A DNA stretch of 22,363 nucleotides from a virus, in the IMG/VR virus record IMGVR_UViG_3300025759_000777, positions 1-22,363 of that record; one strand, 5' to 3'. This document shows positions 12,144 through 22,363 of the stretch, piece after piece (the stretch's first letter is position 1; every line of letters begins with the position of its first letter). The position numbers and the translations under genes were made by a program. The notes below the pieces were generated by a model, which was not told where the DNA came from, did no database searches, and saw only the letters and a program-made list of their open reading frames with translations.

Positions 12144-13580
12144 TTAAACAATCCAATCCCTGAAGTCTTCTGCAAGGACTTGACTTGCTATATTGATTTT
12201 ATTCCGCAGGGCTTTCAAGATACGCTCGTCGACTGTGTTTTCCGCCACAATATCGATGTATGTCACTTTGCTAGTTTGCCCGATACGATGCGCTCTATCC
12301 TCACTTTGTAACCGTATTTCAAGGTCAAAGTTATTGCTGTAATACACCACAGTCTTAGCTTCTGTCAGTGTTAAACCGTAACCTCCTGTTCGTGGTTGCC
12401 CTACAAAATACATAAGTGGGTCGTTAGGGTCTTGGAAACGGTTGACAATGTTCTGCCGCTCATCACTCTCTGTTTCCCCATAGTATGTAGCTACACTTTG
12501 CTCGCCGTATTCTTTTGCAATAGCTTGCTCAATATTCTTAATGTCGTGTGTGAAGTTAGCCCATATAATAACCTTGCCATCAACTTCTTCCAGCACCGAC
12601 ATAAGTTCTGGCAGTTTGGCTGAGTTAAAGGTTTTCATTTCGCCATCATCTAATCTTACATGGCCTGAACAAACCTGTTGTAAACGTAGTAGCTGTGTGA
12701 GGATAGTATCTGTAGTTACAGAGCCTTCTTCTAGCATTGCTAGGGCAAATGTTTTAAGGCTACTGTAGACTGATTTCTGTTCATCTGTAAGCTCGACTGC
12801 TCGTTTGATATATACTTTATCGGGCAAGTCTAAACAGTCTTCTTTCTTTACGCGGAAGCTGAAGTTTTCCAGTATGCCATTGAGTTTATCAAGGTTACGG
12901 TAGCCCACAACCTGATTAAAACTGTGCGCTCCCATGCTACGGCGTTGCACAACAGCATACTCGTATTGGAAGCTAAAGTAGCTACTATGGCCTAACAACC
13001 ACGAATCAAGGAACTCACATTGTGTGTATAAATCCATAGGGCTTTTGGTTACTGGTGAGCCTGTTAGGATACGCCTGTATCTGGCCGACTTACCAATTTT
13101 CACGATGTTTTTGGTGCGCTTGGCATCCTTGCTTTTTATGGTAGTGCTTTCATCTACAGCCATGAGTGCGCTGTGCGCTTGCAAAAACCGCTCGGCTATT
13201 TCACAGCCCTTTTTAGTGCTGAACGCCTCAACATTCATAACAAAAATCTTGAGATTATCATCTGGGAAAAACAATGTCTTTTGCTTTTCAAGCTGTGTTT
13301 TTGTTTGGCTAGGGTTCCACAATACCGTGTCATACATAACATGGTCAGGAATGTGCGTGGGCAGTTCGCCTTGCTCCCAGTTTCTATACACACCTTTGGG
13401 TGCGACAATAAGAGCGGCGGTAACTTCGCCACGGTCATACAGGACGCACATATTATCAATAAGCACTTTGGATTTGCCTGTTCCCATATCCATGAAATAG
13501 GCAAACTCGGTTTTGTTCCAAGACTTTTTCAGTGCTTCCAGCTGATGCTGGTAGGGTTGAAACTTAAATTTATAACGCAT
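12144..13580 (-). CDS. SNF2-family superfamily 2 DNA helicase/translocase
   Basis: 478 aa, the only minus-strand gene in the window. SF2 motifs are intact: motif I MGTGKS (32-37), motif Ia region IVAPKGVYRNW (58-68), motif II DEST (143-146), motif III TGSP (173-176), a C-terminal RecA lobe with VIIWANFTHD (337-346), motif V region GGYGLTLTEA (399-408), and motif VI SEDRAHRIGQ (426-435). RAHRIGQ is diagnostic for the SNF2 group, which move along duplex DNA using ATP rather than unwind it fully. It is a minimal two-lobe version with no accessory nuclease. Free-standing phage SNF2 proteins are usually placed with replication or recombination genes. The gene diverges from the replication block and converges on the late block. 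An extended -10 sequence lies upstream. The start ATG has the weak ribosome site AGAAAG. Confidence 0.9.
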   Translation of the reverse strand: MRYKFKFQPYQHQLEALKKSWNKTEFAYFMDMGTGKSKVLIDNMCVLYDRGEVTAALIVAPKGVYRNWEQGELPTHIPDHVMYDTVLWNPSQTKTQLEKQKTLFFPDDNLKIFVMNVEAFSTKKGCEIAERFLQAHSALMAVDESTTIKSKDAKRTKNIVKIGKSARYRRILTGSPVTKSPMDLYTQCEFLDSWLLGHSSYFSFQYEYAVVQRRSMGAHSFNQVVGYRNLDKLNGILENFSFRVKKEDCLDLPDKVYIKRAVELTDEQKSVYSSLKTFALAMLEEGSVTTDTILTQLLRLQQVCSGHVRLDDGEMKTFNSAKLPELMSVLEEVDGKVIIWANFTHDIKNIEQAIAKEYGEQSVATYYGETESDERQNIVNRFQDPNDPLMYFVGQPRTGGYGLTLTEAKTVVYYSNNFDLEIRLQSEDRAHRIGQTSKVTYIDIVAENTVDERILKALRNKINIASQVLAEDFRDWIV

Positions 13581-15660: not shown

Positions 15661-17175
15661 ATGTCTTTAGCAGAGAAATTTCTAAAGCTATTTGATGGTA
15701 ATAAACGAGCGCATGGTGTGTTCAACCCTGACGAACAACGTGGGGATGGCAAGCGGCTTGGCGTTTATAAAATCATAAAACAGCCACCAACTGAAGAACT
15801 TTGGCAACAGCACTTAGATGGTAAGCAAGGGCTAGGCATTATTCCCATCAGGGATGACAACCTTTGTAAGTGGGGTGCCATTGATATTGACACATACGAT
15901 GTAGACCATAAGGCACTCGTCAAGAAACTTAAAGATGCTAAGATAGTCGGATGGGTAGGGCGTAGTAAATCTGGCGGCGCACATATTTATTTTTTCTTTA
16001 CGGATGCACTCAAAGCTGAGTCTGTGCAATCCAAACTTACCGAGTTGGCGGCTTCGTTAGGTCATGCCGAAGGTGAGATATTCCCTAAACAATCAACCAT
16101 TCTTGTAGATCGTGGTGACACAGGTAATGGCTTGAATATGCCATATTTCAAGGGCGACCTGAGTACGCGGTCGGTATACGACTTTAAGGGCGAGCTTATG
16201 ACCCCTGAAGAGTTTGTGACCAAAGCCACACGCTACTTGATCAAGCCTGAAGACTTTACTGGCTACCGTATATCCGAGCCAGAACCTAAGTTAAAAGATG
16301 GTCCCCCATGTTTGAATGAGCTTTGTCAACAGGGCTTTGGCGAAGGCTCACGAAACAATGCTCTCTTTAACTTGGGTGTGTATGCCCGAATGTTTGACGC
16401 TGATAATTGGGAAGCCTTGATACAGCGTTATAATGTTGAGTATTTGCACCCACCGCTTAGTCATACTGAGGTTGGCGCGGTTATCAAACAGTTACAGCGC
16501 AAGGATTATTATTACAAATGTGACGACCAGCCTATCAAACCTTTTTGTAATAAGGATATATGCGTTACTCGCAAGTTTGGCGTTGGTCCGGCTGGTGTGC
16601 AAAACCAGATGTCCAGCCTTACAAAGATTGATGGTGATCCACCTATTTGGATACTAGATGTAGACGGTCAGCGTGTTGAATTAAGCACAGATGGTTTGAT
16701 TAGCCAGACACGATTCCAAAAAGATTGTGTAGCGCAGATCAATAAACTGCCTATCGCAGTAAGCCAAAGAGCATGGCAGACCAGAATACAGTTATTGCTG
16801 GATAATTTAACCATTGTAGAAGTGCCACCTGATGCTACAATTAAAGGTGAGTTTGAAGACTTGTTGTCACAGTTCTGTACTGATAGAGCTAAAGGTACAG
16901 ACCGTGAAGACATATTGCAGGGCGTAGCCGTATGGGATGAGGGCAAAGTATTCTTCCAAGTCAAGGATATTAAAAAGCATCTGACCGTTAACGACTTTAA
17001 CCATTACACTTCAAACAAGATAACTTTACGACTCCAGGGAATGGAAGCAGAAAAAATGTTTTGGCGTGTAAAAGGCAAAGGGATTCATGTATGGTCATTA
17101 CCACAAGAGTTTTTTGCATCTAGCGACGAAATATTGGAACTGCCTGAACTGCCCCAACAGAACGACATATTATAA
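15661..17175 (+). CDS. Archaeo-eukaryotic-type DNA primase (AEP), primase-polymerase-like
   Basis: 504 aa; ATG preceded by GGAG (15651-15654) six bases away. The N-terminal catalytic domain shows the AEP signature: acidic DID (D75, D77) in WGAIDIDTYD, the SGGAH motif (104-108) in RSKSGGAHIYFFF, then EIFPKQ (139-144) and GNGLNMPYF (155-163), a region in the style of TOTE/primpol AEP domains. A helical PriCT-like segment follows (about 215-280, GSRNNALFNLGVYARM). Four cysteines, C217, C287, C296 and C301, the last two in FCNKDICVTRKFG, look like a metal or Fe-S site. The C-terminal 190 residues are beta-rich and unassigned. It should make primers for phage replication, acting with the SSB-like protein upstream and the helicase downstream, whose ATG overlaps its stop. 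No polymerase is present nearby, so polymerase activity by this enzyme is conceivable. Confidence 0.85.
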   Translation: MSLAEKFLKLFDGNKRAHGVFNPDEQRGDGKRLGVYKIIKQPPTEELWQQHLDGKQGLGIIPIRDDNLCKWGAIDIDTYDVDHKALVKKLKDAKIVGWVGRSKSGGAHIYFFFTDALKAESVQSKLTELAASLGHAEGEIFPKQSTILVDRGDTGNGLNMPYFKGDLSTRSVYDFKGELMTPEEFVTKATRYLIKPEDFTGYRISEPEPKLKDGPPCLNELCQQGFGEGSRNNALFNLGVYARMFDADNWEALIQRYNVEYLHPPLSHTEVGAVIKQLQRKDYYYKCDDQPIKPFCNKDICVTRKFGVGPAGVQNQMSSLTKIDGDPPIWILDVDGQRVELSTDGLISQTRFQKDCVAQINKLPIAVSQRAWQTRIQLLLDNLTIVEVPPDATIKGEFEDLLSQFCTDRAKGTDREDILQGVAVWDEGKVFFQVKDIKKHLTVNDFNHYTSNKITLRLQGMEAEKMFWRVKGKGIHVWSLPQEFFASSDEILELPELPQQNDIL

Positions 17176-20257: not shown

Positions 20258-20863
20258 ATGGCGGCAATCAAGACTTTTGCAGTATTGGAAAACCACAATG
20301 AATCTAACAGGAACGAGCCATATTCCTACTTTGTGTTCCCCTCATTGCGAGACCTTCGTAATTGTAAAGAGCTCAATGAGCATAGCATTGTGTTTTCAAA
20401 TGTGGAACAATTACAAAACACATTCACTGAGCAAGAGTTACTCAGTGTTTTGGAAGCCAGTAATATCCAACGCGAGACTACTGGCTATTTTAATTCGCAG
20501 GGCGTTTACAAAGAGTTTCACAAAATTGTAGCGACTCGCGCGAAAAAATATAAACCTGTTGAAAAGGAGACTAAAATGCAGGTGAACACTCCGTCGGCTG
20601 TCATGCCTACACCAACCGTTACTGTTGATGTACCCAAGCAAGAGCGCACCGCTCGGGTTAAGTATGATCCACAGGCAACGATTGTTATTACAGGTTCTAA
20701 CCCATACCGTGAAGGTAGCAATCGCTGGCATAACTTTGAAGCCCTTGCTAAGTCTGCTACCGTTGCTGATGCCTTGTCCGCTATGAAAGCGTTGACTCCT
20801 GGAGGCAACAGTGTTGATATTAAATTGGCGTTGGCAAAAGGCGTCATTAAGCTAGGGGACTAA
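20258..20863 (+). CDS. Unknown two-part phage protein with an internal start
   Basis: 201 aa, ATG behind AGAAAGGAG. I do not recognise the N-terminal part (1-100), which reads as a small alpha/beta domain (FAVLENHNESNRNEPYSYFV). A charged linker (ATRAKKYKPVEKETK) joins it to a Pro/Val-rich stretch and a C-terminal domain (about 137-201), which begins ATIVITGSNPYREGSNRWHNF and ends AKGVIKLGD. I have seen similar C-terminal domains alone in other phages, with no known role. Inside the linker, AAGGAG (20564-20569) lies six bases before an in-frame ATG (20576), giving a possible separate 95-aa product of the C-terminal domain. The gene ends four bases before the HMUDK_hel-type gene. Confidence 0.7.
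   Translation: MAAIKTFAVLENHNESNRNEPYSYFVFPSLRDLRNCKELNEHSIVFSNVEQLQNTFTEQELLSVLEASNIQRETTGYFNSQGVYKEFHKIVATRAKKYKPVEKETKMQVNTPSAVMPTPTVTVDVPKQERTARVKYDPQATIVITGSNPYREGSNRWHNFEALAKSATVADALSAMKALTPGGNSVDIKLALAKGVIKLGD
20564..20578 (+). promoter_or_regulatory. Internal ribosome binding site and ATG
   Basis: AAGGAG, six bases, ATG: this is as good as the site at the gene's own start (20242-20250). The ATG is in frame at codon 107 of the 20258 gene and lies exactly between the linker and the C-terminal half, so a shorter second product is plausible. Confidence 0.45.
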
Positions 20864-20867
20864 ACCT

Positions 20868-21773
20868 ATGGAGAACATAGAAAGGTTCTTTTACTGGATA
20901 AATGAGCGTCACGCTATTTACCAAAAGCGAGCCAAGGGGGTCAACCCCCCTTGGACTGACGACCACATTTTGCAGGACTACAAGTTCACAAACCCCTTCC
21001 GTGAAAACGACCGTGTTACTGTTTGGATGCGCCAAAACTGGACTAACCCAAATGCGAACCGTTCGCACAGTGAAATCGTGTTTAATTGTTGTTTGTTTCG
21101 CATGATTGGCACAAGCGAGTTTGCCGAAGAACATGGGTGGGTTGACGAAGATAAAGGATGGAATCCCGACCATACAAAAGAACTTATTGAGGCTAGGTTG
21201 TCCTCTGGTTTGCGGACATTCACTGGAGCTTATATAATCACTAATCAAGGTCTCAAAGCTCGTAAATCGGAGGTCGTCGTTGACCATTTCCTCAAACCTA
21301 TCTGGAAAGACAGGGTGCATTTATCGGGGGTCGCCGAGGAAACGCAATCGTTGCAAGCGACCCACAAAGCGATGGCTTCCCATCGGGGATGGGGAGGGGG
21401 AGGTTTTATGTCATACGAAGTGGTTACCGACCTCAACTACACACCTGTATTGGACAAGGCACAAGACCGTTTTAGTTGGGCAAACGCAGGTCCAGGAGCA
21501 AAGCGAGGACTGAACCGTATCCATGATAGGGTGCTCACTAAGTCTATGAACCAGACCCAAGCCAATACCGAAATGCAGGAGTTACTGGCTCAAGCACCAA
21601 ATTACATTCAATCTCATGTCCCCCTTGATGCAGTAGATATGCGAACTATTGAGCATAGCCTGTGCGAGTGGGATAAGTATGAGCGTGTGCGCCTTGGACA
21701 AGGTAAGCCGCGCAGTAAGTATCGGGCTAATGTTGGAATGTGGTTGGAGGCTCCTAATGGTGGGGTGGTGTAG
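20868..21773 (+). CDS. DNA thymine hypermodification protein, aGPT-Pplase / 5-hmdU DNA kinase helical (HMUDK_hel) family
   Basis: 301 aa; ATG with AGGGG upstream (20854-20858). The N-terminus shows the family signature: FYWINERHAIYQKRAKG (8-24), PWTDDHILQDYKFTN (28-42) and FRENDRVTVW (44-53). The second half has GGFMSYEVVTDLNYTPVL (177-194), AGPGAKRGLNRI (207-218), resembling a helix-hairpin-helix of glycosylase-like proteins, and EHSLCEWDKYERVRLGQGKP (262-281). Iyer and colleagues (2013) predicted this family to act in making alpha-glutamyl- or alpha-putrescinyl-thymine in phage DNA, and Pfam later tied it to the helical domain of 5-hydroxymethyl-dU DNA kinase. It should therefore modify hydroxymethylated pyrimidines within DNA. 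No P-loop kinase domain is fused here, so a partner enzyme must be encoded elsewhere. The name rests on motif recall; the biochemical step is inferred. Confidence 0.82.
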   Translation: MENIERFFYWINERHAIYQKRAKGVNPPWTDDHILQDYKFTNPFRENDRVTVWMRQNWTNPNANRSHSEIVFNCCLFRMIGTSEFAEEHGWVDEDKGWNPDHTKELIEARLSSGLRTFTGAYIITNQGLKARKSEVVVDHFLKPIWKDRVHLSGVAEETQSLQATHKAMASHRGWGGGGFMSYEVVTDLNYTPVLDKAQDRFSWANAGPGAKRGLNRIHDRVLTKSMNQTQANTEMQELLAQAPNYIQSHVPLDAVDMRTIEHSLCEWDKYERVRLGQGKPRSKYRANVGMWLEAPNGGVV

Positions 21774-21775
21774 AA

Positions 21776-22096
21776 ATGTTGTGTCCAAAATGCAGTGGCA
21801 AATCAACCGTCGCAGACAGCAGACTTACAGCGGACAAATCAGTCCGGAGGAAGCGAGTATGTCAGAAATGCAAGCACATCTATCGGACATTGGAAGTATT
21901 AGAGACATCCAAGCCCACCGTGCCGAAACCGAAGCCCGAGCAACCGAAGCCAAACAAAAAGAAACGGTTACGGTCGAGGACGAAGCCACAAAAGGTTTTT
22001 AGATATACTGAAGCAGACATTGACAACCTAACCGATGAAGAGTTAGAAGAAGCAATGGCCTCTGGTTCAATAAGATTTGATGAGGATGAGTTATGA
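21776..22096 (+). CDS. NrdR-like zinc-ribbon protein without an ATP-cone
   Basis: 106 aa; ATG two bases after the previous stop. CPKC (C3, C6) and CQKC (C29, C32) form a zinc ribbon. The segment between them (ADSRLTADKSVRRKRVCQKC) and the following HIYRTLEVLE match the N-terminal DNA-binding ribbon of NrdR, the ribonucleotide reductase repressor, in order and spacing. The ATP-cone that makes NrdR nucleotide-responsive is missing. Instead there is a Pro/Lys-rich linker (PKPKPEQPKPNKKKRLRSR) and an acidic tail (DIDNLTDEELEEAMASG, then DEDEL). It lies between two DNA-modification genes, and its stop overlaps the next start by four bases. It may be a DNA-binding adaptor or a regulator of phage or host genes; which one cannot be decided from sequence. 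Confidence 0.75.
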   Translation: MLCPKCSGKSTVADSRLTADKSVRRKRVCQKCKHIYRTLEVLETSKPTVPKPKPEQPKPNKKKRLRSRTKPQKVFRYTEADIDNLTDEELEEAMASGSIRFDEDEL

Positions 22097-22363
22097 TACC
22101 TATTTTTATCCCCACAAGGGGTAGGCTCAATAAGCAAACTACTTGGGAAAGTATTGGTCCGGAAGCAAGAGAAAGTGCGGTTCTGGTTTGCCCACAAGAA
22201 GAAGTGCAAGCACATATTAACAATGGTCGTTACTGCTTGAACCGTGGTGAAATCAAGGGCATAAACAATGTCCGCCAATTTATTGTAGATCACGCAGTGG
22301 AGCAGGAGTATGATAAAATTGTTATTTTGGATGACGATCTTATATTTGGTCGCCGCGCACATG
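22093..22363 (+). CDS. TET-associated-type glycosyltransferase (TAGT) for modified DNA bases (3' truncated)
   Basis: 90 codons are visible before the window ends; the ATG overlaps the previous stop (ATGA). The sequence opens MIPIFIPTRGRLNKQTTWES, followed by VLVCPQEE (30-37), KGINNVRQFIVDHA (55-68) and a DDD motif (D80-D82) in KIVILDDDLIFGRR. The beta-strand start, the GIxxxRQ segment and the DDD metal/nucleotide-sugar site are the features of the GT-A-fold TAGT family described for phages that carry TET/JBP dioxygenases; these enzymes are thought to add sugars to hydroxymethyl-pyrimidines in DNA. Coupling to the NrdR-like gene and closeness to the HMUDK_hel-type gene support a DNA rather than cell-surface substrate. 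It could be another GT-A enzyme; the C-terminal part is needed for certainty. Confidence 0.75.
   Translation, partial: MIPIFIPTRGRLNKQTTWESIGPEARESAVLVCPQEEVQAHINNGRYCLNRGEIKGINNVRQFIVDHAVEQEYDKIVILDDDLIFGRRAH

Follow-up and report, generated by a model that had tools for sequence, protein, structure and literature searches.

A candidate thymine-glycosylation module in an environmental phage, with an HMUDK_hel protein beside a TAGT glycosyltransferase

Phages of the M6 group, SPO1-like phages and ViI-like phages carry DNA based on 5-hydroxymethyluracil (5hmU). In the modification cluster of Pseudomonas phage M6 (gp51-gp59; 5-NedU), the gene of the HMUDK_hel protein gp55 (HEL hereafter) adjoins that of the P-loop kinase gp54 (PF18748), and the cluster also encodes the amino acid:DNA transferase (ADDT) gp51, a pyridoxal phosphate (PLP) enzyme and a radical SAM protein. 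The glycosyltransferase TAGT of T2/T6 (PF20691) acts on another base, adding a second glucose to glucosylated 5-hydroxymethylcytosine (hmC). Many TAGTs are solitary (288/753 genomes) and their role was left open (PMC13216743). Here, a stretch of 22,363 nucleotides was analysed (the window), a fragment of virus record IMGVR_UViG_3300025759_000777 that ends in a cassette of HEL, zinc-ribbon and TAGT genes. From gene content and protein families, we favour with moderate confidence a reading in which 5hmU is glycosylated directly, HEL acts as the DNA-side partner and the product is glycosylated 5hmU.

The cassette and its continuation beyond the window

The three genes were found on the + strand, separated by a 2-nt gap and then a 4-nt overlap of their open reading frames (ORFs), as originally predicted. 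HEL (20868..21773, 301 amino acids) matched PF18723 with an E-value of 1.7e-51 (175.7 bits, gathering threshold 25; 274 aligned positions, 4-277 of 281) and phrog_2396 with 2.5e-53. The second gene (21776..22096, 106 amino acids) encodes an NrdR-type zinc-ribbon protein (PF22811 Zn_ribbon_NrdR, 4.6e-11), which matched TIGR00244 NrdR below the cut-off only. The third gene (22093..22363; ORF 22093-22362, right end open) is cut by the window end and holds the N-terminal 90 of the 261 residues of a TAGT glycosyltransferase. This fragment matched PF20691 (9.1e-10) and phrog_842 (1.5e-16), the family of beta-glucosyl-HMC-alpha-glucosyltransferase. All three family names given in the original prediction were thus matched far above chance, and its description of the cassette, as a thymine-hypermodification family combined with a glycosyltransferase type that acts on hydroxymethylpyrimidines, was borne out.

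As the prediction had also stated, the window itself revealed no gene for a hydroxymethylase, a TET/JBP enzyme or a kinase, and the hydroxymethyl source was expected outside it. The continuation was read in contig L003, which is 99.98% identical to the window over 11,496 bases (window coordinate = L003 + 10867). After HEL and the zinc ribbon, this contig carries the complete TAGT (L003:11226-12011, 261 amino acids), a radical SAM/SPASM protein (L003:11962-12996, 344 amino acids), a ThyA-like protein (L003:13098-14114, 338 amino acids; PF00303, 1.8e-20), a 163-residue protein, a 61-residue ORF, DNA polymerase A (PolA; L003:14656-16575) and a YfbR-type HD 5'-deoxynucleotidase (L003:16538-17065). 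The ThyA-like gene starts at about 23965 in window-equivalent coordinates, some 1.6 kb past the window end, which would place the hydroxymethyl source where it had been sought. Among the genes that the prediction suggested looking for right of 22363, the ThyA-like and radical SAM genes were present and the kinase family was not. The cassette at the window end is real and forms the edge of a well-defined variant of thymidine hypermodification. Its genes probably make up the left part of a module for thymine glycosylation in a tailed phage of roughly 60 kb.

The complete TAGT matched the whole PF20691 profile (5.6e-14; 53 bits, gathering threshold 27.5), and its LDDD motif, of the DxD type, was invariant in 15/15 aligned proteins. 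A search of its profile against the PDB gave no match. It is proposed to be a 5hmU-DNA glycosyltransferase. In the radical SAM/SPASM protein, the CxxxCxxC and SPASM cysteines were invariant; the best solved relative by profile was BtrN, over its C-terminal cluster domain only, and all NCBIfam matches were below the cut-off. Our guess would be that it oxidises the attached sugar.

The zinc ribbon was rejected as a core member. It is absent from the HEL-TAGT-radical SAM loci L061, L062, L067, L069, L071 and L075-L077, and sits after the HD gene in L034, L042 and L045-L049. It is a loose companion, dispensable in relatives.

Kinases and glycosyltransferases as partners of HEL

A total of 173 HEL loci were assembled from a first set and from M6-centred viral and genome scans, and all their ORFs were scanned with profiles. 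A glycosyltransferase without kinase or ADDT was found in 135 loci and a kinase without glycosyltransferase in 28; no locus had both, and ten, several of them short, had neither. After clustering at 70%, the corresponding numbers were 20, 15, 0 and 7. Fisher tests of this exclusivity were strong, with loci treated as unrelated. In all 135 glycosyltransferase loci the enzyme was encoded on the same strand as HEL, with a median gap of 36 bases.

The kinase route was searched for directly. Neither the 5hmdU (the deoxynucleoside of 5hmU) DNA kinase PF18748 nor the ADDT family PF18724 scored above the cut-off in any of 21 window-type records, with the M6 control detected; three weak PF18724 matches were HEL itself. 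Likewise, neither family was above the cut-off in whole records of the glycosyltransferase type. Four relatives of 57-69 kb contained no convincing Walker A/P-loop protein except a UvrD-like helicase. In the 62-kb relative G002, for which 40 larger proteins (25 of 37 families listed) and then ten proteins singly were scanned, the likely modification enzymes were only HEL, TAGT, radical SAM/SPASM, ThyA-like and HD. The M6-like route by kinase and amino acid was rejected on the absence of both families and on the exclusivity.

The locus order was nearly constant in 80 relatives: DUF932, a 201-residue protein, HEL, a variable slot, ThyA-like, a small protein, PolA and HD. The slot was filled by zinc ribbon-TAGT-radical SAM, by TAGT-radical SAM, or by one of the families c19, c30 and c75. 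TAGT and radical SAM/SPASM occurred together in 28 loci, and the two TAGT loci without radical SAM lie on contigs that end shortly after. In two relatives HEL stands directly beside the ThyA-like gene, and c19 is elsewhere in both loci. Family c19 gave a GT4 match (7e-4) and a match to a GT-B structure profile (8e-4), each weak alone, and looks like a GT4-type GT-B enzyme. Family c30 is homologous to c19 (hhalign, 2.4e-6); a structural model of it matched UDP-sugar transferases of the GT-B fold (9e-11), suggesting an enzyme of that kind.

When the five types of partner were mapped on a tree of 85 HEL representatives, 19 changes were required, as against only 2 for kinase versus glycosyltransferase. 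This indicates that the kinase/glycosyltransferase split is old and rare, and that the type of glycosyltransferase switches often. The cleanest swaps were seen in the sister pairs L042 (c30)/L066 (c19) and L050/L052. Repeated swapping was thus observed beside a constant core of HEL, ThyA-like, PolA and HD.

Further genes of possible relevance to sugar chemistry were seen in some loci. An FkbM-type methyltransferase stands beside the slot in seven relatives (L058:11991-12731, L080:4519-5142, L026, L028, L033, L050 and L055) and possibly methylates the transferred sugar. Nucleotide sugars may be supplied by cytidylyltransferase-like genes near HD (L019:16399-16827 and L042:15295-16119), one of which is fused to a domain of the mannose-6-phosphate isomerase/cupin kind. 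Both kinds would suit sugar chemistry. A genome contig from a metagenome-assembled genome labelled archaeon (L284) carries HEL, a c19-type glycosyltransferase, a radical SAM/SPASM gene and a ThyA-like gene next to PolA. It is the only radical SAM/SPASM locus without TAGT among the HEL loci and may be a virus contig inside that assembly.

The proposed route and its alternatives

The ThyA-like protein was closest to M6-type proteins (43-45% identity), followed by those of SPO1-like Goe16 and ViI-like Det7, and was remote from T4 td. The position that recognises the pyrimidine is aspartate (Asp) in the dCMP hydroxymethylase T4 gp42 and in MilA, and asparagine (Asn) in true thymidylate synthase. 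Asn was found in the G..G[AS]N motif of 141/141 readable HEL-linked ThyA-like proteins and Asp in 0/141, so that the Asp-bearing pyrimidine pocket typical of a T-even dCMP hydroxymethylase was not seen. The M6 and Goe16 proteins likewise have Asn, and the GxxG[AS]N motif is one residue longer than that of thymidylate synthase. Since the Asn motif and the nearest relatives from 5hmU phages agree, we infer a dUMP-type enzyme whose product would be 5-hydroxymethyl-dUMP.

In the proposed route, the ThyA-like enzyme would hydroxymethylate dUMP, and the HD nucleotidase, judging from its family, would lower normal dTMP. PolA would then incorporate 5hmdU. HEL, with a possible DNA-glycosylase-like (HhH-GPD) fold, would bind the DNA and present 5hmU, and the adjacent glycosyltransferase (TAGT here) would take a hexose from one of the host's nucleotide sugars and attach it directly to the 5-hydroxymethyl group, skipping the phosphorylation of the M6/ViI type. 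In the window clade, the radical SAM/SPASM enzyme may, speculatively, further alter the sugar or the base.

The role of HEL was approached through an AlphaFold2 model (pLDDT 89). Foldseek matched it to the HEL proteins of RSL1 and PhiW-14 and to a fused SP10 kinase (5e-12 to 3e-9), with weaker matches to ADDT and to viral endonuclease III (E 0.11); a sequence search of the PDB gave nothing useful. M6 gp55 (GWGPFMAYEVVTDL) and ADDT (GFGPWIGFKIADM) have a motif in common, which we take to resemble the helix-hairpin-helix of AlkA-type glycosylases (GWGPFMAYE vs GIGPWTA). HEL could have a fold that flips bases out of the helix and offers 5hmU to its partner enzyme. Its motifs are constant and very highly conserved both beside kinases and beside glycosyltransferases, which fits a shared task on the DNA side. 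On the best reading, HEL would present 5hmU to the kinase in phages of the M6 type, and here to the glycosyltransferase with no kinase in between. A bolder version, which we regard as doubtful, would make HEL a general base-presenting adaptor for kinase, GT-A and GT-B enzymes, with the SPASM enzyme of this clade modifying the sugar once it is linked to DNA, much as an aminocyclitol is oxidised by BtrN, to yield a glycosylated thymine unseen in any virus.

Several observations weigh against direct glycosylation with HEL as presenter. The loci are related by kinship, so that the counts overstate independent events: the HEL tree shows only about two changes between kinase and glycosyltransferase, and many of its branches are weak. 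The top PDB match of the model was the DNA glycosylase MagIII at an insignificant E-value of 0.45; the HhH-GPD assignment leans on it, and otherwise on the endonuclease III match and the motif resemblance. Attempts to place family c75 (four loci) among the glycosyltransferases gave no assignment. A host-encoded kinase is possible. Finally, phage ctUhy936 (L114, MW202897) has TAGT, an Asn-type ThyA-like pyrimidine hydroxymethylase and HD, and HEL was not found in its record; because this TAGT module occurs without it, HEL is not always needed.

Among the other explanations, HEL might itself catalyse a further step, such as a transfer or condensation at 5hmU like its relative ADDT, with the glycosyltransferase supplying or capping the product. 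The very high conservation of the HEL motifs and the weak link to the ADDT family speak for this. It was considered unlikely, as a common DNA-side task fits the same motifs beside kinases and different kinds of glycosyltransferases better than one chemistry does.

The original prediction envisaged a base carrying both a sugar and a further group, or two alternative decorations, that is, 5hmU phosphorylated and further modified while TAGT adds sugar to the same or to alternative bases. The family of HEL does take its name from the 5hmdU DNA kinase, the closest relatives of HEL among isolates come from M6-type phages, and the window type shares with M6 the presence of a radical SAM gene, but of a different subfamily (SPASM). 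This route now appears improbable: PF18748 and PF18724 were missing from the window-type records, the four long relatives lacked a plausible P-loop protein other than the helicase, and kinase and glycosyltransferase never occurred together. The double or alternative decoration was therefore left unsupported, although the base may carry a further group, given the radical SAM/SPASM gene.

It is very improbable that the substrate of the glycosyltransferase is the 5hmdU nucleotide prior to its incorporation, or a target other than DNA, with HEL as an unrelated neighbour. A precedent is given by SP-15, which makes its thymine derivative before incorporation (PMC5977210). The tight same-strand pairing with HEL in loci of diverse phages argues against it, and so does the reciprocal linkage: when the search was started from TAGT, HEL was found in 68/76 loci. 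In five of the other eight, the locus begins no more than about 600 bases from TAGT; a further two were the weakest matches, and one, ctUhy936, truly is without HEL.

Glycosylated hmC in the T-even style, with the ThyA-like gene as a dCMP hydroxymethylase, was rejected as highly improbable: TAGT is known from T2/T6 hmC decoration (PMC13216743), LuckyBarnes gp41 is annotated as a dCMP hydroxymethylase (PMC6588365) and the best solved relative of the ThyA-like protein is the CMP hydroxymethylase MilA, but Asn replaces the Asp shared by T4 gp42 and MilA, the nearest relatives are in 5hmU phages and HEL belongs to thymidine pathways. No alpha- or beta-glycosyltransferase of the T4 type was among the 25 of 37 Pfam families listed for the 40 G002 proteins. 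Tet_JBP dioxygenase gave no match in 26 records, in a search without any responding positive control.

Some neighbouring genes were also recorded. The 201-residue protein (20258..20863, + strand) has no Pfam or PHROG match and lies directly upstream of HEL in most of the 80 loci. A primase with an AEP-TOTE domain (6e-15) and PriCT_1 (window 15661-17175) adjoins a UvrD-like helicase. An SNF2-like helicase gene (window 12144-13580, - strand) is oriented opposite to its neighbours, an arrangement repeated in G002, among whose scanned proteins was also a Cpn10/GroES-like protein (4.7e-13). Downstream of HD, a small protein kept in many relatives (L003:17395-17868) matched the DNA-binding protein family phrog_624 (3e-47) and, faintly, a pyrimidine dimer DNA glycosylase.

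Comparison with known systems

The window type shares with M6 an HMUDK_hel protein, a ThyA-like hydroxymethylase, an HD YfbR-like nucleotidase and PolA in one cluster. In place of the P-loop kinase, ADDT, PLP enzyme and the other radical SAM protein of M6, it has TAGT and radical SAM/SPASM. Its TAGT is of the same PF20691 family as the T2/T6 enzyme; unlike the latter, it stands with a dUMP-type hydroxymethylase and falls in the solitary TAGT class (PMC13216743). If the proposed route is true, a glycosylated 5hmU resembling base J is widespread among environmental phages and is produced with no need for the M6/ViI kinase step, and the function of the protein family that takes its name from the 5hmdU DNA kinase is broader than the name implies. 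Many restriction enzymes should then fail to cut such DNA, which in turn should be attacked by glycosylases of its own and by type IV restriction enzymes.

HTVC023P-type pelagiphages have a PolA 51-56% identical to that of the window type. A thymidylate synthase accompanied by aG/PT-PPlase1 has been reported from pelagiphages, and some phages of this type were found to encode a nucleotidase and a putative glucosyltransferase close to PolA as well; the cluster was interpreted as a pathway like that of M6, which the glycosyltransferase might extend (PMC9599517). The gene combination is partly known already; kinase/glycosyltransferase exclusivity, glycosyltransferase swapping, GT-B families and radical SAM/SPASM do not appear in the sections of that paper that were examined. 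A HEL search of HTVC023P, 023Pt_psg01 and DSL-LC04 found no HEL.

The cultured Brevibacterium phage LuckyBarnes has HEL (gp38, annotated as hypothetical), TAGT (gp39 and gp40), a ThyA-like protein with Asn (gp41) and PolA, and PF18748 and PF18724 were not found. It differs in having two TAGTs, and radical SAM/SPASM and HD were not found nearby. Its DNA was predicted to be glycosylated as hmC, with a dCMP hydroxymethylase (PMC6588365). The gene so described is apparently gp41 (L367, NC_047851, 12456-14009), which reads WGWSGIN, with the Asn typical of dUMP enzymes, so that this label is likely misassigned. As far as found in the literature examined, four points are new: the exclusivity, the exchange of TAGT for GT-B families, the occurrence of a dUMP-type enzyme wherever the motif was readable, and the recognition that LuckyBarnes combines HEL with TAGT and is free of the kinase family. 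The proposed route would offer an explanation for solitary TAGTs, and LuckyBarnes, being cultured, makes the idea testable.
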